Origin: Bacteroidia bacterium
GTDB taxonomy: Bacteria; Bacteroidota; Bacteroidia; Chitinophagales; JAUHXS01
NCBI GenBank assembly: GCA_030426955.1
Contig: JAUHXS010000007.1
Span: 124,001-188,000 of the forward strand
Reading direction: 5' to 3'
Length of the DNA: 64,000 nt
The notes beneath the pieces were generated by a model. The model made no database searches, had not been told where the DNA came from, and saw only the letters and a program-made list of their open reading frames with translations. Made by a program: the position numbers and the translations under genes. The number at the start of each line of letters is the position of its first letter. The first letter of the stretch is position 1. Of the stretch, positions 17,692-36,864 are shown piece by piece.

Positions 17692-17703
17692 TAGAGTATG
17701 AAC
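17692..17703 (+). promoter_or_regulatory. Recurrent cargo-upstream motif, copy A (TAGAGTATGAAC)
   Basis: Exact 12-mer directly after the methyltransferase stop and 75 bp before the ATG of a T9SS cargo gene. One of six copies in the 17.7-36.7 kb island; possible activator site. Confidence 0.5.
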
Positions 17704-17766
17704 TTTTTTTAATATTCGGATTGAATATCTTGTGTAGTAGAACTAATTTAATATAAATTACTTTTT

Positions 17767-19821
17767 ATGAAACAGGTATACATCACGGCAATCATCTTTT
17801 TATTAGGGTGCAGTAGCAGTTTTTCTCAATGGGATACGCTATCAACAGGAGTTGAAAGCAACTTCTTTGCAACACATTTTATTAATGAGGATATGGGGTT
17901 GGCCGTCGGGCAGAATGCTACTATATTAAGAACGAATAATGGTGGTGAAACGTGGCTGTCTGCAGATATCCCTCTTGAATACGATGGTAATTTGAGAGAT
18001 GTCTTTTATTCATCAGATAATACGGTTTATGCTGTAGGGAAAGCCTTAAGCAATGACTCCGCTCAGCTGTTAAAAAGCACTGATGGCGGAGGAAATTGGT
18101 TTTTGCATGGACCTCAGATTCCGTTTGACTATGAAGCGGTTTATTTTACTAGTGACTTGCAAGGTTATGTTACAGGAATGCCTTCTGTAGGAGGCACTTG
18201 CAGCGGTTTTAATTGTAGTATGTACCACATTAAAACTTCTGACGGAGGAGCTTCGGGAAATATTGGAATGGAGGTTTTTTCAGGTCGGTCAATCGACATT
18301 ATAGGTAATGCTATTCATTTTCCTACGGATAGTGTAGGCTATATGGTAGGGGCCGCCGCCGCTGTTATTAAAACAACAGACAAAGGTACCTCTTGGAATG
18401 GTATTAGTTGGATTACAGGGCCATCTGCCGATGACTTGCAATTGAATGATGTTTTTTTCATCAATGAAGACACAGGGTTTATTGTTGGAGAGAAAGTTTC
18501 GAATGGTAATGGATTTATAAGACAAACGTTAGACGGCGGGGATTCATGGAGTACAATATATAATAGTTCAAAAAAATTGAGGGGAATTGACTTTTTAAAT
18601 GATGAAACAGGTGTTGTTGTGGGAAAGTCAGGATTAGTTTTAGTTACTTATGATATGGGAGGGTTTTGGTATGAAGAAGAAACTAATGCTACCACCACAT
18701 TAAATGATATTTTCATTGCTTCAGATACGGTTGCTTATGCAGTAGGAAATCAAGGTGTGATTATTAAAAGAGAAGGTGCTTTTGTTGCACCTCCTTTTGA
18801 GGTCAGTTTTGAAATTAATAGGGATGATACGCTTTGTCTAGATACTACAAATCCTGAAATAATACTAGTCAACTTTAATAATACCTCTATTCTGGCAGAT
18901 AGTTTTGTCTGGAAAGATGCCCTTGGAGCTGTTTTGTCAACAAATACCAACTATATGAAAAACTTTGATGAAATAGGAGAATACCAGTATAACTTGGTGG
19001 GTTGCGAGACAGGAGCTGTTTTTAGATGTGACTCTGCAAGTATAACGATAGTAGTTTTGGATAATCAAATCGCAGACTTCGAGTTAGATAATGACACCAT
19101 ATATTTAGGGGACACTGTTTTTACTAATAATACATCAAATTCCTCTGCTAATGTTAGATGGCTGTTAAATGATTTGGTTTACTCATCAGTTTTTGATACA
19201 TTTTTTGTTCCAAGCGCATTAGGGGCAAATGAAGTGAAACTAGTAACCCTTTCAGGGACATGTACAGATACAAGCATTATGCAATCTTTTGTTGTACTCG
19301 GCAATGTATCAGCAGCATTTAGTGATAATTCAGAAGATACTATTGAAGTTGGGACAACAGTTGCTTTCGTTAATGAATCTGAAAATGCGACCACTTATGA
19401 ATGGTATATCAATAATAACTTGATTAGCGCTTTTGAGAATCTCAACTATCAGTTTATTGAAGAAGGTAGTTTTGATGTAAAGCTTCTGTCTTGCCAAGGA
19501 AGTTGCAATGTATCTGATTCTGCAAAAAAAACCTTTGTTGTTGTAAGTGATATTGTTAATGGGTTTTCAGCTTTGGATAAGCGTAATTTGCAATTTAGTC
19601 TTTATCCAAATCCTTCTGAAGGGACTTTTATTGTGGATGTTGCGAACTCAAATAATGTAAATCTTGAGGTGTATAATAGCTTCGGGCAGATGATGTTATT
19701 TCGGAATATTTCTGACAGAAAAAGCACAGTTGATATGAGAGGTATGGCTTCTGGTATTTACAGTGTTAAAGTAAGCACTGATAATGGCAGTACTTTATCG
19801 AAGACTTTGATTATAAAGTAG
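17767..19821 (+). CDS. Secreted YCF48/BNR-type beta-propeller protein with T9SS type A sorting domain
   Basis: 684 residues. Signal peptide 1-21 (ends SSFSQ; an LLGC at 12-15 resembles a lipobox, but the sorting domain favours export across the outer membrane). Residues 25-335 contain Asp-box/YCF48-like repeats (NNGGETW, TDGGGNW, DKGTSWN, DGGDSWS). Residues 340-595 are Ig/PKD-like. The sorting domain (605-684) reads SLYPNPSEGTFIVDV, VYNSFGQMM, MASGIYSVKV and ends KTLIIK. Role is unknown, probably a surface or released binding protein. It carries motif copy A upstream and converges on the next gene with only 2 nt between stops. Confidence 0.85.
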   Translation: MKQVYITAIIFLLGCSSSFSQWDTLSTGVESNFFATHFINEDMGLAVGQNATILRTNNGGETWLSADIPLEYDGNLRDVFYSSDNTVYAVGKALSNDSAQLLKSTDGGGNWFLHGPQIPFDYEAVYFTSDLQGYVTGMPSVGGTCSGFNCSMYHIKTSDGGASGNIGMEVFSGRSIDIIGNAIHFPTDSVGYMVGAAAAVIKTTDKGTSWNGISWITGPSADDLQLNDVFFINEDTGFIVGEKVSNGNGFIRQTLDGGDSWSTIYNSSKKLRGIDFLNDETGVVVGKSGLVLVTYDMGGFWYEEETNATTTLNDIFIASDTVAYAVGNQGVIIKREGAFVAPPFEVSFEINRDDTLCLDTTNPEIILVNFNNTSILADSFVWKDALGAVLSTNTNYMKNFDEIGEYQYNLVGCETGAVFRCDSASITIVVLDNQIADFELDNDTIYLGDTVFTNNTSNSSANVRWLLNDLVYSSVFDTFFVPSALGANEVKLVTLSGTCTDTSIMQSFVVLGNVSAAFSDNSEDTIEVGTTVAFVNESENATTYEWYINNNLISAFENLNYQFIEEGSFDVKLLSCQGSCNVSDSAKKTFVVVSDIVNGFSALDKRNLQFSLYPNPSEGTFIVDVANSNNVNLEVYNSFGQMMLFRNISDRKSTVDMRGMASGIYSVKVSTDNGSTLSKTLIIK

Positions 19822-19823
19822 TC

Positions 19824-21314
19824 TTAGTTGACTTTACTCTTGACCCACCTAAGGATATCAAAGTATTCAGGTAGTTCGTCTTTTTTTAATTGAGTCAGCT
19901 CTTTGTAAAGTTTTTGAAAAAGTTGTTTATGCTCTAAATTTGGCAGGTTAATTACCTTGCTTAGGTATTTTATGATGAGCCCTTCAGCCTTATAAAGTTG
20001 ATCTTTTTTAGTAAGCGTTCTCTTAATGTTTTGAGAAAAATATTCTAAATATTGATAATTGCCTAGCTCGAAATGTGCCAGGAGGCTGACAATATTGCAA
20101 TAAAACCTTGCAAGCTTAGTATTGTCTGTAAATTGTGTTTCAAGGACTTTATTGGTGAAAGAAATACAACGATCATATTGATTTGTTGAAAAATATACTA
20201 GTGCAATGTTTGTGTAACTGTAAGTAAGCATTAGTGTGCTAATACTGTGTTTGTTGTTTTGTAGAAAGGCTATAAATTCATTAATAAAACTAGGCGTTTC
20301 ATTGAAAATACCTTTTCTTAAATAGACATTGGCTACAACTGTAAAGTAGAGATCACTGGCAAATACTTTGAGGCTAGGGAAATTAAATCGTTTGTCAGTA
20401 GTAGTGCTCCTAAGCATTAGGAGATATTTATCAAGTCTCTCATATTCTTGGGTTAAGTTTAAGATCTGAACAATATGAGCAATTGTGTATAAATACCTTT
20501 CAGGCCAATAGCCAATGAAATGTTCCTGCTGCTCAAAAAAAACAAGCCTTTCTTCCATCGATTTCAAGGCAATTTTGTATTTACCTGCTAGCATACTTGT
20601 TGAGTATACAGTTCCAAGTTTGAAATATTTCAATTTAAAAGAAGCTGCAATCTCATCTTTAAATTCTAGAAGCGTTTTTTGAAATGTTTGATTTAACTTG
20701 TCAAATTCCTGCTTGGCCTGTGTACTTCGCAATCCACCATATGTCAAGTATATAATGTTAAACTTGGTTGAAATACTTTCCAAGGTTACAATTGCTTTAC
20801 TACATTGAATAAAAAATAAAATCTCTTGAGATCTATTTACCGATTGGCTTAATGACTTGAGATCTGATGAAACAGAAGAAAGTTTTAATTTAGTTTGATA
20901 TAGGCTTGATAATAGGTCATAAGATTCATACTTATTAGCAATAATTTCTGCCCTCTCAAGTTGTTTCAGAGCTTGTTTGTGAAGCCCCTTTCGATAGAGG
21001 AAATCAATGTTTTCTGATAGGTTTTTTAGTTGAGAATCAACGTTTTTTCCTTGATGAAAAGCCCTTAAGCTTTTTAAAATTAAATCATAAAGATTATGTC
21101 TAGTGACCCGGATATTTCCTTTAAAACGTTCCTTCGAAATAGCACTTTCAACTCTTTCTTTGTCGTAAGGAGTAACACCTGTTAAAATGTCAAAAAGCTT
21201 TAAGTAATTGTTTTTTCCTTGAAGTGAGTTTTGGCTAGAAAATATTCTAAAATAACGCTTTTCAGACTTCGTAAGCGTATGGATCAACTCATATAAGTCG
21301 GTAGGTCTTTGCAT
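19824..21314 (-). CDS. Cytosolic helical repeat (TPR-like) protein of unknown function, paralogue A
   Basis: 496 residues, no signal peptide or membrane span, almost entirely helical, with TPR-like helix pairs (for example GLHKQALKQLERAEIIANKY at about 115-134). The N-terminus reads LIHTLTKSEKRYFRIFSS and resembles STLTKQQIRNFRYFLTA of the protein at 35164, which has the same length and layout. The two bracket most of the T9SS cargo island. ATG at 21314. I do not recognise a named function; the TPR-like fold suggests a scaffold or regulator. It is divergent from the cargo gene at 21379. Confidence 0.7.
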   Translation of the reverse strand: MQRPTDLYELIHTLTKSEKRYFRIFSSQNSLQGKNNYLKLFDILTGVTPYDKERVESAISKERFKGNIRVTRHNLYDLILKSLRAFHQGKNVDSQLKNLSENIDFLYRKGLHKQALKQLERAEIIANKYESYDLLSSLYQTKLKLSSVSSDLKSLSQSVNRSQEILFFIQCSKAIVTLESISTKFNIIYLTYGGLRSTQAKQEFDKLNQTFQKTLLEFKDEIAASFKLKYFKLGTVYSTSMLAGKYKIALKSMEERLVFFEQQEHFIGYWPERYLYTIAHIVQILNLTQEYERLDKYLLMLRSTTTDKRFNFPSLKVFASDLYFTVVANVYLRKGIFNETPSFINEFIAFLQNNKHSISTLMLTYSYTNIALVYFSTNQYDRCISFTNKVLETQFTDNTKLARFYCNIVSLLAHFELGNYQYLEYFSQNIKRTLTKKDQLYKAEGLIIKYLSKVINLPNLEHKQLFQKLYKELTQLKKDELPEYFDILRWVKSKVN

Positions 21315-21325
21315 AGACTATAAAC
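21314..21325 (+). promoter_or_regulatory. Recurrent cargo-upstream motif, copy B (TAGACTATAAAC)
   Basis: A two-mismatch variant, 65 bp before the ATG at 21379. It touches the start codon of the divergent helical protein gene, so it could also affect that gene. The only copy not preceded by a same-strand stop codon. Confidence 0.45.
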
Positions 21326-21378
21326 AAACATAGATAATAAGATGAATTTAAGATTTTTTTTAGAGCATTTTAGAAAGT

Positions 21379-23220
21379 ATGAAAAAGTATTTTTTTTCTA
21401 CAGCTATAGCATTTTTGATCTTTTTTAGCATTTGTGCTGCTTCTGATGTCCAGAGAGCAAACAACTGGTATTTTGGTATAAATGCGGGAGTCTCCTTTTC
21501 AGATATGACTCCAGCTGCATTATCAAATGGAATGATGAATCAATTGGAGGGCTGTGCTGCTATTTCAGACAAAGCAGGCAATTTGCTTTTTTATACAGAT
21601 GGAGTAACCATTTGGAATCGTTTTCATGATACTTTGAGTAATGGCTCAAATTTATTAGGTCACCATTCTTCGTCCCAGTCTGCATTGATTATTCCTAAGC
21701 CTTGTCACGAAGAGTTATATTATGTTTTTACAACGGATGCATCTAGTGGGTTGAACAATGATGCCAGTTATTCGCTAGTAGATATGTCATTAGACGGAGG
21801 GAAGGGAGCAGTAGTAAGTAAAAATAAAATATTGATGAAAAATGCATCAGAGAAAATGACTGCTGTCCATCATGTCAATAAGCAAGATATTTGGTTGCTT
21901 TTGCATAGCCTTGATTCAGATACATTCTATGCTTTTCTCGTATCAAAAGATACTATTGCCTCTCCAGTTTTAAGTAAATCTGGTAGTGTGCAAATCGCAG
22001 AGGCGGGCTGTATGAAATTTGCACCCGATGGAAAAAAAGTGGCACTTGCTCATAAAGATTACTTTGAGATTTTTGACTTTGATAATGATACTGGAATCGT
22101 ATCGAATTCAATAAAGACAGAATCTAAATACCCTTGGACTTATGGAGTTGAATTTTCTCCCGATGGGAGCAAACTTTACGGTACGATGTATCAGGGAGTG
22201 GGCGATAGCATTATACAATTTGATCTTGAGGCTGGTTCAGACTCGGGTATTATTAATTCAGCGATGACAATTGGGGCCTCACCATTCGGTATTAGTCCTA
22301 GGTCATTACAACTTGGCCCCGATGGGAAGATCTATATTGCTATGGCGACAGGAACCCATCTAGGTGTGATAAATAATCCAAACTTAAAAAGCTCATTATG
22401 TGAGTATGAGCCCGAAGGACTATACCTTGGTGGTCGTCGCTCAAGAATGGGATTGCCAGGATTTGTCCAAAGTTTCTTTTGGGGAGATAGCATCCAAATA
22501 CCAGCAATTGTATATGATAATAGTTGCTTAGGCGATACAACAAGGTTTTATTTAAAAGGGGTTGCAGAAGATCAGGTAGACTTCTTATGGAGCTTTGGTG
22601 ATACGACAAGCGAGGTAAATCACGTCTTTGAAGAAGTTGGATCTTTTGATATAAATCTTTTCATATTCAATCATGATTCTATTTGTAATGGTATTCAGGT
22701 AGATACTCTTTTCGCAGATATAAATGTTTTCCCATCTCCCAACATCTATTTACCAGACTCCTTATTCTTTTGTTCAGACTCATCAATTACGATAATCGTA
22801 AACAGTGAAATGAAAAGTTATGCATGGTCTACAGGAAGCACTACAAATGAAGTTATAATAGATGCTGAACAAACAATATCATTAGAAGTGCTAGATAGTA
22901 ATGGCTGTGATAATAAAGTCACGAGTGTTGTTAGTCAACTAGATTGTACAGCAGAAAATCCGATAGACTATTTACCGTTTATTCCAAACGCTGTCTCGAT
23001 AAATAATTTTAAGGAGCTTATTTTTATAAACCAATTGCAGGATTTTTCTGAATCCTATTCCTTCAAGATGTTTGATCGATTTGGCAAAGTAATTTGGGGG
23101 ATCAATAATACATCACATGATAATATTATGCTTGTTGAAGGAGCACTTTCATCAGGAGTCTATCTGTACACATTTAAGGTACAACAGTATTCAAAATCAG
23201 GCACTATTACAGTACTCTGA
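21379..23220 (+). CDS. Secreted beta-propeller protein with degenerate T9SS type B (gliding-motility-type) C-terminus
   Basis: 613 residues. Signal peptide 1-22. Residues 28-375 form a WD40/YVTN-like propeller that begins NNWYFGINAGVSF and contains GCAAISDKAGNLLFYTDG, FAPDGKKVALA and FSPDGSKLYGTMY. A PKD-like domain follows (FLWSFGDTTSEVNHVFEEVG, about 395-420) and an Ig-like domain (YAWSTGSTTNEV). The last 80 residues have the type B layout (FKMFDRFGKVIW, SGVYLYTFKV, GTITVL) but lack the usual PNGDG loop. The N-terminal module is clearly related to that of the next gene. It is probably surface-displayed; the ligand is unknown. Confidence 0.82.
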   Translation: MKKYFFSTAIAFLIFFSICAASDVQRANNWYFGINAGVSFSDMTPAALSNGMMNQLEGCAAISDKAGNLLFYTDGVTIWNRFHDTLSNGSNLLGHHSSSQSALIIPKPCHEELYYVFTTDASSGLNNDASYSLVDMSLDGGKGAVVSKNKILMKNASEKMTAVHHVNKQDIWLLLHSLDSDTFYAFLVSKDTIASPVLSKSGSVQIAEAGCMKFAPDGKKVALAHKDYFEIFDFDNDTGIVSNSIKTESKYPWTYGVEFSPDGSKLYGTMYQGVGDSIIQFDLEAGSDSGIINSAMTIGASPFGISPRSLQLGPDGKIYIAMATGTHLGVINNPNLKSSLCEYEPEGLYLGGRRSRMGLPGFVQSFFWGDSIQIPAIVYDNSCLGDTTRFYLKGVAEDQVDFLWSFGDTTSEVNHVFEEVGSFDINLFIFNHDSICNGIQVDTLFADINVFPSPNIYLPDSLFFCSDSSITIIVNSEMKSYAWSTGSTTNEVIIDAEQTISLEVLDSNGCDNKVTSVVSQLDCTAENPIDYLPFIPNAVSINNFKELIFINQLQDFSESYSFKMFDRFGKVIWGINNTSHDNIMLVEGALSSGVYLYTFKVQQYSKSGTITVL

Positions 23221-23225
23221 GAGCA

Positions 23226-23237
23226 TAGAGTATGAAC
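23226..23237 (+). promoter_or_regulatory. Recurrent cargo-upstream motif, copy C (TAGAGTATGAAC)
   Basis: Exact 12-mer, continued by AAAA, five nt after the previous stop and 65 bp before the ATG at 23291, the same distance as copies B and D. Confidence 0.5.
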
Positions 23238-23290
23238 AAAATGGGTGTAAATGCCCAGCGGCCTTTGTATCTATTATGCATATTTAGAAT

Positions 23291-25504
23291 ATGGTAAACA
23301 GACTAATATTTATATACATTGCTTATTTATATACGATAGTAAGCTTAAATGCGCAGAAAGAATTTTCAACTTGGTATTTTGGTGAAGGTGCAGGGTTAAG
23401 ATTCACAGAAGGAGAAGCGCCTCAAGCTATTTCAGGCAGTCAGATCAATACAAATGAAGGCTGTGCAACTATTTCAGATGTTAATGGGGACATATTATTT
23501 TACACAGACGGAAGAAGTGTTTGGGATAAAACCCATAATAAAATGCCCAATGCGCAAGGCGATATTTGGGAAAAAGCAATGAGTGGAGATTTTAGTGCTT
23601 CACAATCTGCAATTGTCACTCCAGTAATAGGCTTGCCTGACAGATACTACTTATTTACGGTAGATGGGGTGACAAGTCAGATTTTCGGCCCCAAAGGAGA
23701 GTGGGATGGTTTATATTATTCCGTAATAGATATGAATTTAAATAATGGATTGGGAGATGTAGACACTGCCTTTATACACAATCTTGGGTATATCCATAAT
23801 AAGGTTCCATTGCAAGATACGACTGCAGAAAAAGTGATAGCAGTAAAGCACGCTAATAATAGAGACTACTGGGTTGTTACTAGAGGAAATAACAATGACT
23901 CAATCTATGCCTTTTTAGTTACCTGCAACGGCGTCAATAATATTCCAGTGGCGAGTAAAGTTGATTTCACTTGGCAAAAAACTACTATGGGGTTCGACCT
24001 AAAGGGAGCAGGATTTTTGAGGGCAACAAGGGATGGAAAATCAATTATAGAAGTAGATCAAGCTGGAGCAGTGTTGTATGATTTTGATAATAATGTTGGA
24101 AAAATATTAGATCACGATACAATTATATGGGGGGCGCATAGGGATACTATTATTGGAGGTGGATTTATGGGTGATCCGAAAGATACTACTGTGCGTGTTA
24201 AAGATTGGCATTATGGGGTAGAGGTTTCGCCTAATGACAGTTTGATTTATACAACTACCTATTTTGTGGGCTCAGGTCAGGGATCGGTTTGGGTGTTTAA
24301 GCGATTTGCATCTAATATTCAGGAGAGTGGTAGAAAACTTCATGATCACAATAGTTTTGCAATAAGCACTTCGGCCTTACAAATAGGTCTTGATGATAAT
24401 ATCTATATGGCGCACTTTAAAGAAAAGCATCTTTCTTATATCACAGACGTAAATGATTACGACAATGCAAATTTTGTTTACAAAGGGATAGATTTGAATG
24501 AAAATTCTAGAATTGGATTGCCTAATTTTTTTACAACAAATGACAAGTGGAATGTAAGTATAGACTATAATGATATAATAGCCTGTAGTAGCGATGATTC
24601 AGTGAAGATTGACGTGCAGGGTTCTCCACTATATGAGCACGCTTGGACGCCAAACTATAATATATCAGATACTTCTATTGCAGACCCCGTAATTTTATTA
24701 GACTCATCGCTGACCTATTATGTCGAGGTTACCACAGAGTGTACTACTTTGTTTGATACCGTGAATGTTTTGATCAGCCCATTAGTGGAATTTAGTTTAG
24801 AAGGTGATCTGGAGATATGTGAAGGAGAACAGACTAGGATAAAGTCAAGCATTATTGATGATAGCGTTTTGTATAATTGGAATAACGGAATACAAGATAC
24901 TAGTATTGAAGTAGATGAAGAAGGTTGGTATGTCTTAGAAGTCATATGGGATGAGTGTTCTAGCAAAGACTCGTTGTATGTAGAAGTCAACCCATTACCT
25001 AAATTTTCACTAGGAAATGATACAACATTATGTGCAGATGAACTTGAGTTAACGCTCAGTCCTCAGTGGTCTGAACTAACAGATGCAACTGGCATAAGAT
25101 ATGCCTGGTCCACAGGAGACACCGCTAGTCACATAATAGTTGTTAAAGAGGCAGAGTATTGGCTTGAGGTAGAAGATACAAATGGCTGTGATTTTGAGAA
25201 TGCGATGCATCTTGCTACGATAAACTGTGATGAATTAGTTGACGTTCCAACAGCTTTTACACCTAATGGAGACAATGTAAATGACTTCTTTGAACCCATA
25301 TTAAATAATGTAACAATCAAGGAGTTTTATGTATATAATAGATGGGGGGAGCTAGTTTTTCAAGGAGCAGGTAATAGTTATGTGTGGGATGGTAAGAAAG
25401 AAGGTGTATTGCAAGAAGTAGGGGCGTATAATTATCGAATTACAACAAGCTCCAGTAAGGATATTTATAGTCAGCTAGAAGGTACTATCCTCTTAGTTAA
25501 ATAG
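23291..25504 (+). CDS. Secreted beta-propeller/Ig-repeat protein with T9SS type B sorting domain
   Basis: 737 residues. Signal peptide 1-21 (ends SLNAQ). The propeller module (26-420) opens FSTWYFGEGAGLRF and contains GCATISDVNGDILFYTDGRS, matching the upstream neighbour closely enough to suggest tandem duplication. Residues 430-650 hold about three Ig-like repeats (YVEVTTEC, YNWNNGIQDTSIEV, YAWSTGDTASH). The sorting domain is canonical type B: TAFTPNGDNVNDFFEPIL, FYVYNRWGELVFQ, VGAYNYRITT, ending EGTILLVK. Likely co-transcribed with the lipoprotein gene 28 nt downstream. Confidence 0.87.
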   Translation: MVNRLIFIYIAYLYTIVSLNAQKEFSTWYFGEGAGLRFTEGEAPQAISGSQINTNEGCATISDVNGDILFYTDGRSVWDKTHNKMPNAQGDIWEKAMSGDFSASQSAIVTPVIGLPDRYYLFTVDGVTSQIFGPKGEWDGLYYSVIDMNLNNGLGDVDTAFIHNLGYIHNKVPLQDTTAEKVIAVKHANNRDYWVVTRGNNNDSIYAFLVTCNGVNNIPVASKVDFTWQKTTMGFDLKGAGFLRATRDGKSIIEVDQAGAVLYDFDNNVGKILDHDTIIWGAHRDTIIGGGFMGDPKDTTVRVKDWHYGVEVSPNDSLIYTTTYFVGSGQGSVWVFKRFASNIQESGRKLHDHNSFAISTSALQIGLDDNIYMAHFKEKHLSYITDVNDYDNANFVYKGIDLNENSRIGLPNFFTTNDKWNVSIDYNDIIACSSDDSVKIDVQGSPLYEHAWTPNYNISDTSIADPVILLDSSLTYYVEVTTECTTLFDTVNVLISPLVEFSLEGDLEICEGEQTRIKSSIIDDSVLYNWNNGIQDTSIEVDEEGWYVLEVIWDECSSKDSLYVEVNPLPKFSLGNDTTLCADELELTLSPQWSELTDATGIRYAWSTGDTASHIIVVKEAEYWLEVEDTNGCDFENAMHLATINCDELVDVPTAFTPNGDNVNDFFEPILNNVTIKEFYVYNRWGELVFQGAGNSYVWDGKKEGVLQEVGAYNYRITTSSSKDIYSQLEGTILLVK

Positions 25505-25532
25505 ATTACCTTCTTTAAAAATGTAAATAGTT

Positions 25533-26519
25533 ATGTCGCGATTACCCTTGAAAATCCTTTTAATTATTACCATATTTCATTTTTCCTGCAAAAAAGAGGA
25601 TAAACAAGAACTTTGTGTTCAAGATTGTGACACAATAGAAGAGTTAATATTTCAAACTGGTTTTGATGGCTCAAGCATTGTTGATGCTTCTAGTTCAAAT
25701 GCGGATATAGTTGGCATAGATAATAACTATACAAAGCTAAATGACTGGGAAAGTGACTTGGATAATCATCCACAAATTGGCAAATTCAATTTTCAGTTTG
25801 AAGACGGAAATTCAACTCAAAGAAATGTTGACATTGTATCTGATCCTGAAAATTATCAGAACGACGTTTTAAGATTTTGGATCAAAGAACCTCATATCAA
25901 CAACGGGATTAATAAGAAAAAAGGAAGAGTTCAAGCCAATATTTATGGAAACAGTTGCCTGAAAGAAGTTTGCTATGCTGTAAAGATGTACATACCAGAA
26001 GACTTTAATCATTTAAAGACCATGTCAGAAAAGATAAATTGGCTGACAATAGCTGAATTTTGGAATAATGGACACTTTAGAAAAGATGAAGATTATCCTT
26101 TTAGAGTAACACTAAATATAAGGAAAATAGAAACCGGAACAGTTGATCATTTATACTTTGGTGCTCATGGGCAAACAAAAGAAGGTTCCAAGTGGGAGGA
26201 GGTTTGGGAACATATTAATGAATCGGTAGCTGTTCCAATTGGCGAGTGGATTGATTTAACGATATACTTAAAAGAGGGAGATGCATCTAATGGAAGAACA
26301 TATATGTCTATGACAACTCAAGATAGTGTCTCTACAACAATATTTGATATACAAAACTATACGCACCATCCTGATGATGTTTGTCCCAAGGGTATTAGGG
26401 ATTTTAATCCATTAAAAATATATACCTCAGATAATGTAATCAACCATGTCGCTAATAATGGAGGACTGTTTCATGTATATTGGGACGACTTTGTTTTTTT
26501 GAGAAACAAAAGACCCTAG
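25533..26519 (+). CDS. Lipoprotein with polysaccharide-lyase-like (jelly-roll) domain
   Basis: 328 residues. The signal peptide ends in a lipobox-like FHFSC with lipidated Cys19, followed by KKEDK. The body (about 40-325) looks like the beta jelly roll of heparin-lyase-type proteins (Polysacc_lyase family): YAVKMYIPEDF near residue 150, a central IAEFWNNGHF segment, and the closing GGLFHVYWDDFVF. The family cleaves or binds acidic polysaccharides; activity cannot be confirmed from motifs alone. It lacks a sorting domain, unlike all its neighbours, and lacks its own copy of the upstream motif, consistent with an operon with the preceding gene. Confidence 0.6.
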   Translation: MSRLPLKILLIITIFHFSCKKEDKQELCVQDCDTIEELIFQTGFDGSSIVDASSSNADIVGIDNNYTKLNDWESDLDNHPQIGKFNFQFEDGNSTQRNVDIVSDPENYQNDVLRFWIKEPHINNGINKKKGRVQANIYGNSCLKEVCYAVKMYIPEDFNHLKTMSEKINWLTIAEFWNNGHFRKDEDYPFRVTLNIRKIETGTVDHLYFGAHGQTKEGSKWEEVWEHINESVAVPIGEWIDLTIYLKEGDASNGRTYMSMTTQDSVSTTIFDIQNYTHHPDDVCPKGIRDFNPLKIYTSDNVINHVANNGGLFHVYWDDFVFLRNKRP

Positions 26520-26520
26520 T

Positions 26521-26573
26521 TAGAGTATGAACAAAAAGATATAACTTGCCTTCGGTATTTTACCTTAAGTTTG
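26521..26573 (+). promoter_or_regulatory. Recurrent motif copy D followed by a predicted promoter
   Basis: TAGAGTATGAAC at 26521-26532 (then AAAAA), 65 bp before the ATG at 26586. Downstream lie TTG (26546-26548), 17 nt, and TAAGTTTG (26566-26573), a full match to the Bacteroidota -7 element. The motif is therefore centred roughly 55 bp upstream of the expected transcript start, a usual place for an activator site. Confidence 0.5.
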
Positions 26574-26585
26574 TAATTTCTAATT

Positions 26586-28334
26586 ATGAAAGGAGACAAT
26601 TTAAAAATAGTAGTTGGGTGTTGGTTTATATTATCTGTTTTAGCATTACAACAAATGAGTGCTCAGGAAACATTTCCTTGTGATGCAAAATTGTATTTCT
26701 TTCGACATGCCAGCAACGATACTACTTACTTATCCTATATCGACGATTATATTGCAGCACCTAGCCCCAACGTTGTAGATGTTTGCCCATTTGATGATAA
26801 TACTTACAACGCATTAGCTGCTAATGGTAATGATGGCTTTTTGTATGCAATGCAAAAAGATGGTACTGATGGCATCTTAATGAGGATTGATCAAAACTGT
26901 AACAGGACTATTATAGATACACTGCCCTTTAGCTCGTATGGTACTTTTGATTTCTCAGGAAATTATTGGTTTGTTGATGCGACAGATAGATTATATAAAT
27001 ATATTGTTGCTACAAAAACTTTAGTATCAAAGTCAGTACTCTCTGGAATACCTACGGATGCATTTGATATGGCATTTAATATTAGCGATTGTAATTTATA
27101 TATGGCAGGACACAATACCACAAAAGTCTATGATACTACTGGAAGTACTGCTTTGACTAAGTTTAATGGTTTTGGCTCGCCAGGACAATATTATGGGGCT
27201 ATGACCATTGGGGCAGATGGGAATCTTTATGGAATAAAAAATCAAGATAATGTTTTAAAAAGACTCAACCTTACAACATATACCTCGGAGGATGTGATTA
27301 CATTTGATGCAAATCCAGGTGCAGAAGGTTCAGACATGGCCACTTTTTTATGTATAGAGACCGATGCTTTCTTTAGCTTGGATGTTGATTCATTTTGTGT
27401 TGGAGATAGTATCACATTTATTGATTCAAGTGAAGGCTATATCCAAGAGTGGGAGTGGTATTTTGGAGATGGGAACACTTCTAATGAAAGGAACCCTCAA
27501 TATGTCTATTTTGCTCCAGGCACTTATACCGTTAAACTTTTAGTCAAACCTCCTTCTAATACTTGTATAAACATACCTCAAGATTCGATTAAAAAGATCA
27601 TTGTCGTTTCCTCGCAAGTAAAAGGAGCAACTATTGATACTAGTATGTGTTTAGGAGAAAGCTTGCTCTTGTCATTAAACTTAGGAAGTCAATATCGCTG
27701 GATACCAGATATTGGGTTGGATGATCCTACGCAAAGAACTAATAATATAACAGTTTTATCAGATCAAAATTATGAAGTTATTGTGTCGAATAGCAGTAGC
27801 TGCTTTGATACTAGTTATATATCTATTCAAGTGGATACACTTTTAGTTGAAAATGATGCTGCGACTATATGTGAGGGAGAACAGCTTGACTTAAGTGTAA
27901 TTGCTGAAAATGAAATTGTATGGACAACTACTGCTATTGGGTTGGCTTGTGATACCTGTAAGCAAAACAGCTTTGTTCCCGAAGAATCTGATATATATAC
28001 TGCTTCAATGAGTGGCAGTTCTGGGAATCTCTGTGAACAGTCAGTTTCGATAGATGTAATTCCATGCTCTATTTCGTATGTCCCAAATGGGGTAAGCTTT
28101 GAAGGCGGGAGAACATTAAGATTGAGAAATGAATCTGTTGCTTCAGATTATGTATTTACCGTTTATGACAGATTTGGAAATGAAGTTTTTCTTACCACCG
28201 ATGTACTGGAAGAGTGGAATGGGAAAGCACCAGAAGGAGATATGGTTGAACGAGGGGTATACACTTATGTCTTAAGGGCTCTCAGCTTTAATGGAGAGCA
28301 AATAGCACAGTCTGGGAATATAACAGTGCTATAG
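26586..28334 (+). CDS. Secreted propeller/PKD protein with T9SS type B sorting domain
   Basis: 582 residues. Signal peptide 1-26 (ends QQMSAQ). Residues 30-260 form a propeller-like region (YDTTGSTALTKFNGFGSPGQ, MTIGADGNLYGI). A PKD domain follows at about 265-345 (WEWYFGDGNTSNERNPQYVY, PGTYTVKLLV), then Ig-like modules (350-500) with paired Cys (IGLACDTCKQNSF). The type B C-terminus has YVPNGVSFEGGRT, FTVYDRFGNEVF, RGVYTYVLRA and ends SGNITVL. Role is unknown; the architecture is that of adhesin-like surface proteins. Confidence 0.85.
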   Translation: MKGDNLKIVVGCWFILSVLALQQMSAQETFPCDAKLYFFRHASNDTTYLSYIDDYIAAPSPNVVDVCPFDDNTYNALAANGNDGFLYAMQKDGTDGILMRIDQNCNRTIIDTLPFSSYGTFDFSGNYWFVDATDRLYKYIVATKTLVSKSVLSGIPTDAFDMAFNISDCNLYMAGHNTTKVYDTTGSTALTKFNGFGSPGQYYGAMTIGADGNLYGIKNQDNVLKRLNLTTYTSEDVITFDANPGAEGSDMATFLCIETDAFFSLDVDSFCVGDSITFIDSSEGYIQEWEWYFGDGNTSNERNPQYVYFAPGTYTVKLLVKPPSNTCINIPQDSIKKIIVVSSQVKGATIDTSMCLGESLLLSLNLGSQYRWIPDIGLDDPTQRTNNITVLSDQNYEVIVSNSSSCFDTSYISIQVDTLLVENDAATICEGEQLDLSVIAENEIVWTTTAIGLACDTCKQNSFVPEESDIYTASMSGSSGNLCEQSVSIDVIPCSISYVPNGVSFEGGRTLRLRNESVASDYVFTVYDRFGNEVFLTTDVLEEWNGKAPEGDMVERGVYTYVLRALSFNGEQIAQSGNITVL

Positions 28335-28343
28335 ACTATAAAC
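28332..28343 (+). promoter_or_regulatory. Recurrent cargo-upstream motif, copy E (TAGACTATAAAC)
   Basis: Identical to copy B. Its TAG is the stop codon of the preceding cargo gene, and it lies 80 bp before the ATG at 28412. Confidence 0.45.
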
Positions 28344-28411
28344 AAAATTATATTTTTGTAATAGGAGCTTGTGTACAATGAACCTATATTGCTTTTATAA
28401 ACTGTTCACTT

Positions 28412-30319
28412 ATGAGAGCATATCAGACTTTATTCGTACTTCTTTTATTTTTTCATTTAGCTAAAGGCTGGCAAGAAGTTCAAAAAGTAGTAGCATCAGA
28501 CAGAGGTTTTAGGGATAATTTTGGGTTATCGGTAGCCATTGATAACAATTTTGCTATTGTTGGAGCACCTTATGAAGGTACTATTGATAATACCTTAAAT
28601 GATGGCAAAGGAGCTGCTTACATATATGAAAAGAGTGCTAGTGGAGTATGGGAGCAGACGAAAAAACTTGAGGCATCTGATGGGAGCTCACATGATCTTT
28701 TTGGTTGGTCTGTCGCTATTAGTGGTGACTATGCGGTAGTTGGTGCCTACCATGATGATAGGTTTATGCTAATGCCTGATGCCTATTATGTTGGTATAGG
28801 GTCTGCCTATGTTTTTGAGAGAGATACAAATGGAAATTGGAACGAAGTGCAAAAGCTAACAGCTTCTGATCGATCATCAAGCAATGGTATGGAATTTGGC
28901 AAAAGTGTTGATATTAGTGATAATATCATTATAGTTGGAGCTCCTTTAGATAGTATTGAGAATAAAAAGCATGCTGGCTCTGTATATTACTATCAAAGAG
29001 ATAACATGGGTGTTTGGAACGAAACCAATAAAGTTACAGCCTCTGATATTCAGGAAAAAGATTTTTTTGGAAAGGATGTAGCTATAAGTAAGTTTGCCTC
29101 TATTATAAGTTCCTCTAGCGACTTTATTGATACAAATGGTAATGGCTATTTAGAAAATGCTGGAGCGGCATATGTTTTCAAGAGAAACGTTGATGAGAGT
29201 TGGCGAGAACAGCAAAAATTAGTCGCTTTGGATAGGACACAAGATGACTTCTTTGGTCATGCTGTTTCTATTTCAGATAGTTTTGTGGTAATAGGTGCGC
29301 CTTATGTAGCAAGTAATGAAAGTGGCTTGAATCCAATAAACTGGGCTGGAGCGGCGTATGTTTTTAAAGAGCATGAATTGGGGTGGCAACAAGCTCAAAA
29401 AATAGTAGCTAGTGATCGTGAGGCGGATGAATGGTTTGGCGCAGATGTTGCAATTGATGACAATAACATCGTTGTTGGGGCATTTCATGAAGATAGCGAT
29501 ACAGTTGGAGGTAGTACGATGTGGTCAGGGGCTGCATATGCGTTCACGAGAGCAATTGATGGTAATTGGAAAGAGGTCAGCAAGCTAGAAGCTTCGGATA
29601 AAAATGGGTACGATCTTTTTGGATGCGCAGTAGCAATAAGTAATGATGATATTATAACTGGAGCATATTATGAAGACGAGGATGCAGAGGGAAATAATAC
29701 CATAATGCAATCGGGATCAGCTTATCTATTCTCATGTCAACCTAGCTATGATACCTTAGTAGTAAAAGTTTGTAGTAGCTATGAATCTCCGAGTAAAAAA
29801 TATATTTGGTCAAGTTCGGGAGTTTATAATGATACACTTATAAATAATAGTGGATGTGATTCTGTAATTACAATTGATCTTGAAATTCAAACAGCTATTT
29901 TAAAAGAGGTGTATCTTGATCAAGACGAATTTTATATTGATCGACATGGCAATGTTATCAATAGTGAGGTTGAAGAATATATTGATACGATAATAAGTGG
30001 CTCAGGTTGTGACAGTATTTTAAAAATTACATTTAAAGAAGAGAATGATGACTGTATGAGCAATGTTTTTTTGCCCAACGCTTTTAGTTTAAGTGGTAAT
30101 GGCTTAAATAATACTTGGGAAGTTATGTCAAATTGTGATGATGTAGAGGAAGTTAATATATACGAAAGATGGGGGCAGTTAGCATATTCTAGTAAAAGCG
30201 AATTTTCATGGAATGGGATGAGTGATGATGGCACCCTATTTAGTCCAGGAGTCTATATGTACTCGGTTAATCTTAGGTCAGGAAAAAGGTTTGTAGGTTT
30301 TATCACCTTAATAAGGTAA
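28412..30319 (+). CDS. Secreted FG-GAP (integrin-alpha-like) repeat protein with T9SS type B sorting domain
   Basis: 635 residues. Signal peptide 1-19. Residues 22-445 contain about seven FG-GAP-type blades, each with a core like ASDR...DNFG.SVAI...AIVGAPY (for example DLFGWSVAISGDYAVVGAY and DFFGHAVSISDSFVVIGAP). This predicts a seven-bladed propeller, often calcium-binding and adhesive. A linker with Cys-containing Ig-like segments leads to the type B domain (FLPNAFSLSGNGLNNTWEV, VNIYERWGQLAYS, SPGVYMYSVNL, ending GFITLIR). The stop is 3 nt from the convergent purF stop. Confidence 0.88.
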   Translation: MRAYQTLFVLLLFFHLAKGWQEVQKVVASDRGFRDNFGLSVAIDNNFAIVGAPYEGTIDNTLNDGKGAAYIYEKSASGVWEQTKKLEASDGSSHDLFGWSVAISGDYAVVGAYHDDRFMLMPDAYYVGIGSAYVFERDTNGNWNEVQKLTASDRSSSNGMEFGKSVDISDNIIIVGAPLDSIENKKHAGSVYYYQRDNMGVWNETNKVTASDIQEKDFFGKDVAISKFASIISSSSDFIDTNGNGYLENAGAAYVFKRNVDESWREQQKLVALDRTQDDFFGHAVSISDSFVVIGAPYVASNESGLNPINWAGAAYVFKEHELGWQQAQKIVASDREADEWFGADVAIDDNNIVVGAFHEDSDTVGGSTMWSGAAYAFTRAIDGNWKEVSKLEASDKNGYDLFGCAVAISNDDIITGAYYEDEDAEGNNTIMQSGSAYLFSCQPSYDTLVVKVCSSYESPSKKYIWSSSGVYNDTLINNSGCDSVITIDLEIQTAILKEVYLDQDEFYIDRHGNVINSEVEEYIDTIISGSGCDSILKITFKEENDDCMSNVFLPNAFSLSGNGLNNTWEVMSNCDDVEEVNIYERWGQLAYSSKSEFSWNGMSDDGTLFSPGVYMYSVNLRSGKRFVGFITLIR

Positions 30320-30322
30320 TTC

Positions 30323-32224: not shown

Positions 32225-32319
32225 CTGAACCTTTAAACAATAGTTTGAAATAGATAGTTCTAGTAAAATTAAATAAATGAATTGATATTGGCTTACCTTT
32301 ATACCTACAATATATGTTT

Positions 32320-32793
32320 ATGAGAGTATTGATGGTCTGCTTAGGAAACATTTGTAGGTCACCCTTAGCAGAGGGAATTTTAAAGCACAAGATTAAAGAG
32401 ATGGACTTAGACTGGAAAGTCGATTCGGCTGGGACTGGTTCTTGGCATATTGGAGAGCAGCCAGATCCAAGATCAATTGCAGTTGCTAGAAATCATGGAT
32501 TGGACATAGCAGACCAAAGGGGTAGGCAGTTTTCAAAAAAGGACTTTGAAGATTTTGATTTGATTTTCACCATGGATAGCGAAAATTATAAAAATGTGCT
32601 GGCAATGGCTGAAAGTGTGGATCAAAAAAATAAAGTAAAAATGATTCTCAATATGCTAGAGCCCAATAGCGACAAATCTGTGCCGGACCCCTATTGGAAT
32701 CCTACCTCGCCGGCAGGCGGGGGTGATGGTTTTGAGCAGGTGTACCGCATGCTTAATAGTGCTATAGATGCCATCATTGAGAAATATCAATAG
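32320..32793 (+). CDS. Low-molecular-weight protein tyrosine phosphatase
   Basis: 157 residues from the ATG at 32320 (an ATG two codons earlier at 32314 is possible). The P-loop CLGNICRS has catalytic Cys7 and Arg13. The general acid Asp is in VPDPYW. It removes phosphate from phosphotyrosine, and similar enzymes often act on tyrosine kinases of polysaccharide export. The segment after PDPYW is odd: NPTSPAGGGDGFEQVY where relatives usually have GG.DGFEQVY, an insertion of about seven residues encoded by a GC-rich palindrome. The insertion lies in a surface loop next to the acid loop, so activity is probably retained. Confidence 0.93.
   Translation: MRVLMVCLGNICRSPLAEGILKHKIKEMDLDWKVDSAGTGSWHIGEQPDPRSIAVARNHGLDIADQRGRQFSKKDFEDFDLIFTMDSENYKNVLAMAESVDQKNKVKMILNMLEPNSDKSVPDPYWNPTSPAGGGDGFEQVYRMLNSAIDAIIEKYQ
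32705..32722 (+). repeat. In-frame GC-rich palindromic element inside the phosphatase gene
   Basis: CCTCGCC (32705-32711), loop GGCA and GGCGGGG (32716-32722) form a 7-bp hairpin with one G-T pair. It is strikingly GC-rich for this AT-rich window and falls exactly where the protein has extra residues compared with its family. It resembles CCCGCC/GGCGGG hairpins in the gap near 52.5 kb. Confidence 0.5.
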
Positions 32794-32803
32794 TAGTAGT
32801 TCC

Positions 32804-35032
32804 TTATCGAAGTAAAGAAACATTTCCTACAAACTGTTTTAAGGTATCATTCTCATCTCTGATATTTACTTGATAAGTATAAACGTCTTCATTGTAGTTG
32901 GCTCCATTCCATTCGTGACCATTGCTAGCAGTTGAATGGTAAATTAATTGACCTTGACGGTCAAAAATAGACATACTTTCTATAATGCCTATGCTAACAA
33001 TAGGGCTAAAAGTGTTATTATAACTGTTACCATTTGGTGAGAATACGTTTGGAATAAAGACGTCACCATTATTAATCTCAGATTTAATGGCTACAAAAAT
33101 GGTGTCTTGGGTATAGCAGCCAACTGAATCTGTTAATATGGCAATATAGTATGCCGGATCTATAGGGTTTACTTCAATTTCAGAACAATTATTACAAATT
33201 GAAGAACCGTCAAGATGGTTCCAGTTTAATATGCCATTTCCTGTAGCTTGCAAAGTAATGGTCGTATTCTTATTAATAATAGTGTCATTTCCTATCTCTA
33301 GTATTGGTTTTGGCAAAATAGATATGGTAACAGAGTCTTTAATTGACGTGTAGCAAGGCTTACTGGCTTTTACATGATAGATAGTAGTTTTGCTTACAGT
33401 AGCCTGTGGATTCCCAACAGATGGGTTATTTAAGCTCTCTTTAGGTGTCCATTCATAATCATATTCTGAGAGAGAGGTGTTGCCGATGTTTAAAGTTATT
33501 GGTAATTCATTGTGACAGAAAAATGTATCAGCAACAGCAAGCTCTAAGAAGTCATCAGAAAATGGCTTTAGCTTACCAATATATCTGTTGCCATTTTTAG
33601 GAGTATAGAGAGAGTTATTGATTAAAAGAGTGTCTGTAATTTTACCTTCATAATGGAAATCTCCATATTGATCTATATGCATATCATTTGCATAGTTTCG
33701 AGGTAAATACGTTGGATAGTTCGCACTAATAAATTTCCCACTTAGATCAAAAGTTCCTTGAAAGTCAAACTGTTCTCCTTTATTTCTTTGAAAAATGCTA
33801 TCTCCAATGATGATATTCGACGAATCCTTCATGGTAGCCGTATGAAAAGCATTTAAGTAAATCTGATTATTGCAGTTGCTAATACCTAGTGCATTGGGAA
33901 ACATTTGACTTACAAAACCATAGTTATTGATTCTAATGGTTCGACTCCATCTTAGACTTCCATGCTTATCAAGCGATAAAAGGACATTATCAAAGTGTCC
34001 ATTGCTTGAAATGACACTAGAGAATGTGCTGTCCCCCCAGGTATCTCCATCTCCATAGCTTGTATATAGGTAGCAGTTTTCTTCGTCGTCTATTTCCATT
34101 TGAGTAACATCCGTGGCAAAGCTAACTAAGTTTGCAATGCCTCCTTTGACCCAAATGATATTACCATCTTTATCATACTTGGCCAAGAATCTGCCAATAT
34201 TGAAAACGCTTGGGATACCCGTAGAGGAAATAATTTGTCCATCAAAATTAGCATTTCCGTAAAATGTTCCTGCGATAAAAACATTTCCTGAATCAGAAAC
34301 TCGTATCCTATATCCCCTGTCATAGGTGGAAACTCCATCGCCAGCTCTTCGGATCCACTGTATGTTGCCACTTTGTGCATTTATTTTAGTTAAATAAATG
34401 TCATTGCCTCCTATTGGGCTTAAAGTGCTATCTCCTAAGGCCAAACTGCCGCCATACATCCCTGTTATGTAGATATTGTTATCTTTTTCAAAAAGATCTT
34501 CTATAAAAACGCCTCCGCTGTTAGAGCTTCCAGAGAGTGTCCATTTTACGTTTAAAGCTGTATCGTAGCAAAGAATAAAGATATTAAAGCCTCCAGTTCC
34601 AGAGTGTATTATAGAACTTCCATTTGGTAGGTTGAGGGTGTCATTAATAGGAAGTTGTCCTGCAAAAAATATATTTCCACTTTGATCAACATGAGCAGTT
34701 ATGGCATGATCTTGTGATATGTTTAGTAAATCTTTAGAAAAAACCAATTCCCCATTCTCATCAAACTTTGATAGTATATAGGTCATTCGATTATTTACCA
34801 ATGCCTTTCCAATGATCGTATCTGTATCAAAAATCAGACTGTCCTCCATTCCAGTATAATTAGACAGAAGATATGTGTTTTTATCCTCGCTTCTTAACAG
34901 TTTTGTTATAGACCCAGCAGTAGTTGTTCTTTTATATTGCTTGACCCATTCCCACTCCTGAGCTAATGTTGTATTACTATTGCCTAGTATTAATAGGCTT
35001 ACTACAAATAATATACTAAAGGTATTTTTCAC
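32804..35032 (-). CDS. Secreted SBBP-like propeller/Ig protein with T9SS type B sorting domain
   Basis: 742 residues. Signal peptide 1-24 (ends TTLAQ). Residues 28-490 contain propeller-like repeats in which GN.F.AG phrases recur (SGNIFFAGQL, SGNVFIAGTFYGNANF, NNIYITGMYGGSLALG). Residues 500-650 are Ig/PKD-like (YEWTPKESLNNPSVG, WNHLDGSSICNNC). The type B domain is canonical: IPNVFSPNGNSYNNTFSPIV, MSIFDRQGQLIYHS, EDVYTYQVNI, ending VGNVSLLR. Start is GTG at 35032. It faces away from the helical protein gene across a 131-bp AT-rich gap. No clear copy of the 12-bp motif lies upstream. Confidence 0.85.
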   Translation of the reverse strand: MKNTFSILFVVSLLILGNSNTTLAQEWEWVKQYKRTTTAGSITKLLRSEDKNTYLLSNYTGMEDSLIFDTDTIIGKALVNNRMTYILSKFDENGELVFSKDLLNISQDHAITAHVDQSGNIFFAGQLPINDTLNLPNGSSIIHSGTGGFNIFILCYDTALNVKWTLSGSSNSGGVFIEDLFEKDNNIYITGMYGGSLALGDSTLSPIGGNDIYLTKINAQSGNIQWIRRAGDGVSTYDRGYRIRVSDSGNVFIAGTFYGNANFDGQIISSTGIPSVFNIGRFLAKYDKDGNIIWVKGGIANLVSFATDVTQMEIDDEENCYLYTSYGDGDTWGDSTFSSVISSNGHFDNVLLSLDKHGSLRWSRTIRINNYGFVSQMFPNALGISNCNNQIYLNAFHTATMKDSSNIIIGDSIFQRNKGEQFDFQGTFDLSGKFISANYPTYLPRNYANDMHIDQYGDFHYEGKITDTLLINNSLYTPKNGNRYIGKLKPFSDDFLELAVADTFFCHNELPITLNIGNTSLSEYDYEWTPKESLNNPSVGNPQATVSKTTIYHVKASKPCYTSIKDSVTISILPKPILEIGNDTIINKNTTITLQATGNGILNWNHLDGSSICNNCSEIEVNPIDPAYYIAILTDSVGCYTQDTIFVAIKSEINNGDVFIPNVFSPNGNSYNNTFSPIVSIGIIESMSIFDRQGQLIYHSTASNGHEWNGANYNEDVYTYQVNIRDENDTLKQFVGNVSLLR

Positions 35033-35163
35033 AACTATTTTTTTGTTTACAGGAATTTATAGCCTTATAGGATAATAACAAATGATTTTTTTTAAAAACG
35101 GCTTTCCATTGAAATAAAAAACTACCTTTATTTCAATTATTTATAATAATAAAAATAGCTTTT

Positions 35164-36678
35164 GTGGAAATATTAGAGCAAGTAATAAGCACATTGACAA
35201 AGCAACAAATAAGAAATTTTAGATATTTTCTTACTGCTTACGGATCTGTGAAAGATAGTAGAAAAGATGTTGAGTTCTTAAATACGTTGGTCAAAAACAA
35301 ACCTTTTGAAGTAGACCATAAAAATTCAAATGCCTATCATCATTTGAGGAAAAGACTGTTGAAGAAGTTAGAAAACTACATTGTTTTATTACAGTTAGAT
35401 CAAAATAACAATTTGAAATGCATCAAATATGATTTCATGGCAAAAAAAATGTTAGATCACGACTTTAGAAAAAGTGCTCACTATTATACAAAAAAGGCTT
35501 TGCAAGTAGCATCGAAAGATGCTAATTATGACCTTTTAAATTATGCTTCAAAAAATGGAATTGATAATATGAAGAACTTCAATTATCAAGAAGGGTTATT
35601 GTTTGTAGAGAGCGTATTAGATAATTTGAAAAGTGTTAGTGAGCTTGCGAAAGCTAGAATAGCTTGTAGCTTAATTAGGGTTGAATTAATGGAGGCTGAA
35701 AATAAGCAGGTCAGCTATAACCTAAATGAAATAGAGCAGAAAATATTTAAAAAGTGTGAAATTAAAATAGATGGGGTATCTAATCCTGTTAGACTGAATT
35801 GGGCGTTATTTGTCAGTACGCTATATCCTCAGTACAATCAATCGAAAAGGGCTATAAAAATTGCATTAGAGACATATTATTTGTTAATAGATGATCCAAG
35901 ATTTTCTCAAGCGTCAATTCTATATAGCCAAATGGACTGGTTGGTTAACAATATTGCATATATCAAAATAAAGTTGGGTGATTACGACAAGGCAATAGAG
36001 TTTGCAGAACGCTTAGAAAAGAGACTGCTCAGTCGACCAAAGGCCATCAAAAATAGTTTTCCTTCTCTTACACTAACATATTCACTCTTTGCCCACACAT
36101 ACTTTCTTATGGGTGATATAGACAAGGCCCAAATTTTTCTTCAAAAGATGTATGAGCATACTTCGGTTGAACTAGAAAAAGATACTTGCACCATCTTTGA
36201 TGCACATCTTCAGTTTGCACAAAATCAATATGAAAATACACTTGACCTCCTAGTAAAGATTCAAAGGGTTAGCGCTAACTATGAAACATCTTTGGGGACG
36301 AGAAATATAATATTTAAGGAAATTTTTGAATGTCTTGTTCATTATGATCTGGAAAATTATGATGTTGCTCAATCAATGTCTAGGTCATTGCTAGCTAGGC
36401 ATGAGAAACTACTTAAGAACAGTAAGGACGCTTATTTGATAGAATTCTTATTGCTTGTTAAACAAATAGTAGCTAGTAAAATAAAAGGAAATCAAAAAAA
36501 CTATGATAAACTAAACCAGAAAGCCAATCTGCTTTTAGAAGAGAACAAAAAATATACCATCGTTTATATAGACAGTATCTTTCCCTTGATTTGGCTGAAA
36601 TCTAAAATTAACGATACTCCTTATTATCAGGAATTAATATCTAACCTGAAAGAGTCTAGAGGAGAATCATTAAGTTAA
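35164..36678 (+). CDS. Cytosolic helical repeat (TPR-like) protein of unknown function, paralogue B
   Basis: 504 residues, helical throughout, no signal peptide. The N-terminus (VISTLTKQQIRNFRYFLTAYGS) parallels LIHTLTKSEKRYFRIFSS of the protein at 19824-21314, and both continue with a basic helical segment (RLLKKLENYIVLLQLDQ here) and TPR-like pairs (IKIKLGDYDKAIEFAERLEKR, FLMGDIDKAQIFLQKMYEH). GTG start at 35164 is the first possible one. The two paralogues sit near the two ends of the cargo island and each lies next to a cargo gene. A regulatory or assembly role for the secreted products is conceivable but unproven. Confidence 0.7.
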   Translation: MEILEQVISTLTKQQIRNFRYFLTAYGSVKDSRKDVEFLNTLVKNKPFEVDHKNSNAYHHLRKRLLKKLENYIVLLQLDQNNNLKCIKYDFMAKKMLDHDFRKSAHYYTKKALQVASKDANYDLLNYASKNGIDNMKNFNYQEGLLFVESVLDNLKSVSELAKARIACSLIRVELMEAENKQVSYNLNEIEQKIFKKCEIKIDGVSNPVRLNWALFVSTLYPQYNQSKRAIKIALETYYLLIDDPRFSQASILYSQMDWLVNNIAYIKIKLGDYDKAIEFAERLEKRLLSRPKAIKNSFPSLTLTYSLFAHTYFLMGDIDKAQIFLQKMYEHTSVELEKDTCTIFDAHLQFAQNQYENTLDLLVKIQRVSANYETSLGTRNIIFKEIFECLVHYDLENYDVAQSMSRSLLARHEKLLKNSKDAYLIEFLLLVKQIVASKIKGNQKNYDKLNQKANLLLEENKKYTIVYIDSIFPLIWLKSKINDTPYYQELISNLKESRGESLS

Positions 36679-36690
36679 TAGAGTATGAGT
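36679..36690 (+). promoter_or_regulatory. Recurrent motif, copy F (TAGAGTATGAGT)
   Basis: Two mismatches to the exact form, directly after the stop of the helical protein gene and 96 bp before the 29-codon ORF at 36775. The only copy not followed by a large secreted gene. Confidence 0.35.
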
Positions 36691-36774: not shown

Positions 36775-36864
36775 ATGAGTAAAAAACACTTACATCTTTA
36801 TTCTGTTCTTTTGCTCGGCATAGTAACAATAATTGTTGCGATCAATATTACAATTGGGTTTTAG
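36775..36864 (+). CDS. Possible 29-residue single-pass membrane peptide
   Basis: ATG at 36775, stop TAG at 36862-36864. After a basic start (MSKKHLH) about 19 hydrophobic residues follow (SVLLLGIVTIIVAINITIG), giving one predicted membrane span. It lies alone between two convergent genes and 96 bp after motif copy F, which gives some support for its own promoter. No homologue is known to me. It could also be a chance ORF. Confidence 0.35.
   Translation: MSKKHLHLYSVLLLGIVTIIVAINITIGF

Follow-up and report, generated by a model that had tools for sequence, protein, structure and literature searches.

Bacteroidota can encode hundreds of surface proteins secreted through the T9SS, and the literature found on their regulation covers the secretion machinery rather than individual cargo genes. 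In Porphyromonas gingivalis, SigP of the PorXY-SigP system acts on secretion-machinery genes through a motif that differs from the one described here (PMC4800418, PMC7712824). The locus examined here resembles that system in that transcriptional control appears tied to the T9SS. Here, however, it is cargo genes that have the sites upstream, and the sequence of the sites varies from one cluster to another.

A second point of comparison is RusR of Bacteroides thetaiotaomicron, which we take to be BT2802 from the name of its family (NF058569). RusR gives its name to the iModulon (regulatory module) of the ribose PUL BT2803-2809 (PMC12596196). A TPR protein encoded at the present locus aligns with this family over its full length of about 500 residues (residues 1-495 on model positions 1-493 of 502, E = 2.6e-47), and its gene likewise adjoins genes for surface proteins, whose control in the case of RusR is presumed. 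The differences are that it scores 162 bits against a membership cut-off of 550 bits, that it has about 45 paralogues and that its neighbours are T9SS cargo genes with private operator-like sites, not a polysaccharide-utilisation locus. The Gram-positive Rap/RRNPP regulators and domain III of MalT also carry a TPR superhelix within a regulator. Rap-type TPR proteins act by protein contacts. The Foldseek resemblance of the present protein to Rap is weak and of low confidence, no helix-turn-helix was recognised in its low-confidence model, and the similarity in sequence is at the level of the TPR only. Regulator-like TPR genes paired with cargo genes and with private sites at a fixed position would amount to a concrete, testable wiring scheme and, if true, would assign a role to a family whose main known representative to date is RusR.

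The cargo cluster and its repeated sites

The window (the whole stretch of 64,000 nucleotides that was analysed) belongs to a genome of 3.4 Mb with more than 200 T9SS cargo genes. For a genome of this size the repertoire is very large, with more than 120 type B and more than 130 type A sorting-domain matches above cut-off. Five forward-strand genes of the window form the cluster of interest. These encode a type A cargo protein with YCF48-like repeats and a Por_Secre_tail domain (17767-19821, TIGR04183 above the NCBIfam cut-off), a secreted protein with PKD and weak CHU_C T9SS domains (21379-23220), a type B cargo protein (23291-25504), a cargo protein with DUF6923, PKD and CHU_C domains (26586-28334, above the Pfam CHU_C cut-off) and a type B cargo protein with FG-GAP repeats (28412-30319), both type B proteins lying above the curated TIGR04131 cut-off of NCBIfam. 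The T9SS identity claimed for the downstream genes in the original prediction is thus borne out for four, whereas 21379 falls just below the CHU_C cut-off (24.6 against 27 bits). A 328-aa lipoprotein-like protein without a Pfam or NCBIfam match is encoded at 25533-26519 on the forward strand, probably in an operon with 23291; as had been claimed, this second gene has no motif upstream.

Copies of TAGA[GC]TAT[GA]AAC(AAA) were found at 17692, 21314, 23226, 26521 and 28332, all on the forward strand and in the orientation of the genes. Measured from motif start to ATG, the operator-like site TAGAGTATGAAC (17692-17703) lies 75 bp upstream of 17767, TAGACTATAAACAAA (21314-21328) 65 bp upstream of 21379, the two copies of TAGAGTATGAACAAAA (23226-23241 and 26521-26536) each 65 bp upstream of 23291 and 26586, and TAGACTATAAACAAAA (28332-28347) 80 bp upstream of 28412. 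These strings and distances had been reported before, together with a sixth string at 36679, 96 bp before a 29-codon ORF at 36775, and all six were recovered on the forward strand. The copy at 36679 was nevertheless dropped as a member of the motif, being an ordinary two-mismatch match like several others unrelated to cargo genes. All five matches to TAGASTATRAAC in the window fall between genes, share one orientation and stand at matched distances. The site extends as AACAAA in four of the five copies, one pair is identical over 16 bp, and the copy at 28332 overlaps the stop codon of 26586-28334.

Beyond the site, the 25 bp on each side show roughly random identity between copies, and most of the downstream proteins have no paralogy outside the sorting domain. 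The only full-length paralogues among the five are 21379 and 23291, which are distant, so the sites were not merely copied along with duplicated genes. Since the flanks are unrelated and most of the genes are not paralogues, the simplest reading is selection on a binding site. A short conserved site, in fixed orientation and position and between unrelated flanks, is also what an operator would look like in sequence.

We propose, with a probability of roughly 0.6, that the sites are the operator of a small cluster regulon, probably an activator site, and that they are read by the resident TPR protein. That the site is real, private and at a common position is well supported at the level of sequence. 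The repeats would represent a single transcription-factor operator confined to this cargo cluster, and a factor bound at -65 to -80, upstream of the core promoter, would be placed like an activator. The five promoters would be switched together, with 25533 following through its operon with 23291. The most likely reader would be the cluster's own RusR-like TPR protein (19824-21314, reverse strand). Other cargo clusters would follow the same design with different operator sequences. Protein binding at the sites, activation as its effect and the TPR protein as the binder are what we infer from this arrangement.

Private elements of other cargo clusters

Besides genome searches, the comparison of upstream regions drew on sequence surrounding the cargo and TPR loci, about 1.05 Mb in total. 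A simple rule based on signal peptides served to choose the start codons of cargo genes, and some distances are uncertain, as for the gene at C5 394681, where the distance came out as 88 or as 122 bp. In clusters containing a TPR gene, nine pairs of cargo upstream regions from the same cluster exceeded the 99.9th percentile of between-cluster pairs (0.12 expected), five of the nine coming from the window's cluster. Clusters without a TPR gene yielded a single such pair, which is an interspersed repeat.

Further elements of this kind are independent cases. TTTAGACTTGCAAGAAT occurs three times in the genome, each time perfectly, with no additional copy at one or two mismatches; the copies stand at -67, -67 and -79, each before a cargo gene of one cluster, and two of these genes are divergent with one copy each. 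TCGACTNCTTTTTTTTG, the TCGACT element, has four close copies at -65, -64, -82 and -71, all before cargo genes, and a TPR gene neighbours two of these four genes. Both exact copies of GTTTGACTTGTWAT in the genome precede cargo genes of one TPR cluster. The private elements have in common a TNGACT-like start near -65, beyond which the sequence differs entirely between clusters. Taken together, these data suggest many small, separately addressed regulons for surface proteins.

Two candidates were rejected. The cross-cluster match GCCTGGGGTATATACCTAT is not regulatory, since it reads as the part of the preceding gene that encodes a sorting domain (PGVYTY), and the shared 25-mer AGRTTTCTCCTAWCGTCGAAATGAC is an interspersed repeat with copies elsewhere. 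A REP-like interspersed repeat, TTTCTCCTAWCGTCGAAATGAC, was seen in intergenic positions at C5:135635, C5:142299, C11:470537 and C18:334394. At C10:107993-108063, between divergent cargo genes, the C10 element occurs as an inverted pair around a hairpin (AAAAGCACCTCTAAAGTGCT...).

The RusR-like TPR proteins and the proposed reader of the sites

The gene at 19824-21314, which the original prediction had overlooked, is the only regulator candidate within the window's cluster. It is divergent from 21379 and convergent with 17767, and the first base of the site at 21314 is the first base of its start codon; autoregulation or feedback is therefore possible. A second, more divergent member of the group (35164-36678, forward strand), found with an iterated profile and missed by NF058569, forms a divergent pair with the cargo gene at 32804-35032 on the reverse strand. 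The genome holds about 45 RusR-like TPR genes. For 34 of 45 a cargo gene is no more than 300 bp away, whereas 1000 random placements gave 1.8 on average and never more than 8, and many of the pairs are divergent. The arrangement recurs in loci from other families of the order, where the neighbour of the TPR gene is again often a secreted or T9SS gene, recognised by its signal peptide or sorting domain, and the two are frequently divergent. Copies are fewer in these relatives, with 0 to 18 matches per other genome in a search of 60 genomes that scored no more than 20 candidates in each. At many TPR-cargo loci there is just one cargo gene, or there are several among which no common site was detected.

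An AlphaFold model built from four sequences is all-helical, with a pLDDT of 63 overall and 80 for the N-terminal 111 residues alone. No DNA-binding fold was recognised in this conserved N-terminal region, the Foldseek search of the pLDDT 80 model giving no match with E below 0.8. This leaves room for an unlikely alternative, namely that the same cluster-specific operator is read by a protein encoded elsewhere, while the TPR protein serves the cargo in another way, as a sensor, an anti-sigma factor or an assembly partner. Two of the four TCGACTNCTTTTTTTTG sites would fit such a reader, the nearest TPR gene detected being tens of kb away from their cargo genes, as would the way in which Rap-type proteins work, weak though the fold resemblance is. 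However, there is no other candidate in the window's cluster, and the pairing of TPR and cargo genes extends across the genome. Reading of the sites by the TPR protein is argued from linkage and from homology to RusR. A broader and more doubtful extension would make the roughly 45 RusR-like proteins a new class of regulators that bind DNA. Each would read an operator placed near -65, in which a common TNGACT-like start is followed by a private 3′ extension, and small groups of T9SS surface proteins could then be switched separately.

Promoter context

TAnnTTTG promoter elements peak 10-40 bp before the ATGs, which places the sites upstream of the core promoter, in agreement with the activator-like position claimed for a conserved cis element before the five cargo genes. 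The Bacteroidota-type promoter that had been predicted downstream of the 26521 site was also found, as TTG-N17-TAAGTTTG at 26546-26573 on the forward strand (26546-26548 and 26566-26573), between the site and the ATG.

The TNGACT-like start that the private elements share near -65 recalls a -35 hexamer, and the sites could then be promoters of an alternative sigma factor with the TNGACT/GAAC part as the -35 box. We consider this improbable. Elements resembling a -10 box at fixed spacing after the sites numbered 47, compared with 46.8 in shuffles, which argues against a -35 box. Moreover, the sequence beyond the core differs entirely among clusters, and the TNGACT core is not enriched in cargo upstream regions outside the element families described above. 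The motif published for the ECF factor SigP of P. gingivalis is different as well (PMC4800418), and the sites thus show neither that motif nor a fixed -10.

Since the -7 elements lie 10-40 bp before the ATGs, the sites should fall outside the transcript made from each gene's own promoter. This speaks against an RNA-level element in the 5′ leader, whether cis-acting or recognised by the TPR protein, as does the lack of a match in Rfam. The orientation of every copy with its gene would suit such an element, but we regard it as quite improbable.

Very improbable, too, are boundary repeats of recombining gene cassettes (shufflon-like) or short mobile repeats. Several copies in the window's cluster do abut the preceding stop codon, and a hairpin separates two C10 copies that are inverted relative to each other. 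However, the constant distance is to the ATG and not to the preceding gene, each copy in a divergent region tracks its own gene, and no common flank exists on either side.

Distribution of the motif in the genome

Exact matches to TAGASTATRAAC number eight in the genome, of which five fall at this cluster within 11 kb. The three copies outside it (L001, L002 and L003) lie within other genes or at gene ends, are near expectation for the pattern and were set aside. Copies with one mismatch number 77, compared with 144 for a reversed control pattern. When 231 cargo genes were examined for the motif with up to one mismatch, suitably oriented and spaced, it was confined to this cluster except for a single copy at C4:32956. 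This copy has one mismatch, stands about 130 bp ahead of a cargo ATG and is a weak case compatible with chance.

The original prediction had envisaged a general T9SS cargo regulon, detectable as enrichment before cargo genes in a scan of the genome. All five genes at the cluster are cargo, as such a regulon would have it, but no enrichment was seen outside the cluster and near-matches did not exceed the control. Given the survey of 231 genes and the control counts, a genome-wide cargo regulon is unsupported and scarcely credible. Across 99 other genomes of the order, all from other families, the 23291 cargo protein has its best match at 37% identity, a search for related loci with the 26586 product gave no match, and no shared site was found in the loci of relatives, which have few genes each.

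Three exact 12-mers had been held to be very improbable by chance. For the count alone this was too strong, as three exact copies of some 12-mer would in themselves be nothing extraordinary in 64 kb of DNA at 36% GC, whereas for placement it holds, none of 3000 draws of random cargo upstream quintets sharing a 12-mer this well. With up to three mismatches, the window contains 76 matches against 73 expected, so the signal lies in placement and not in raw counts. Chance repeats, for which these chance-level counts and the recurrence of AT-rich 12-mers might speak, are a negligible prospect beside the placement statistics and the parallel element families of other clusters.

Elsewhere among the T9SS cargo genes, an open frame of 7930 codons was observed to end near C5:328299.
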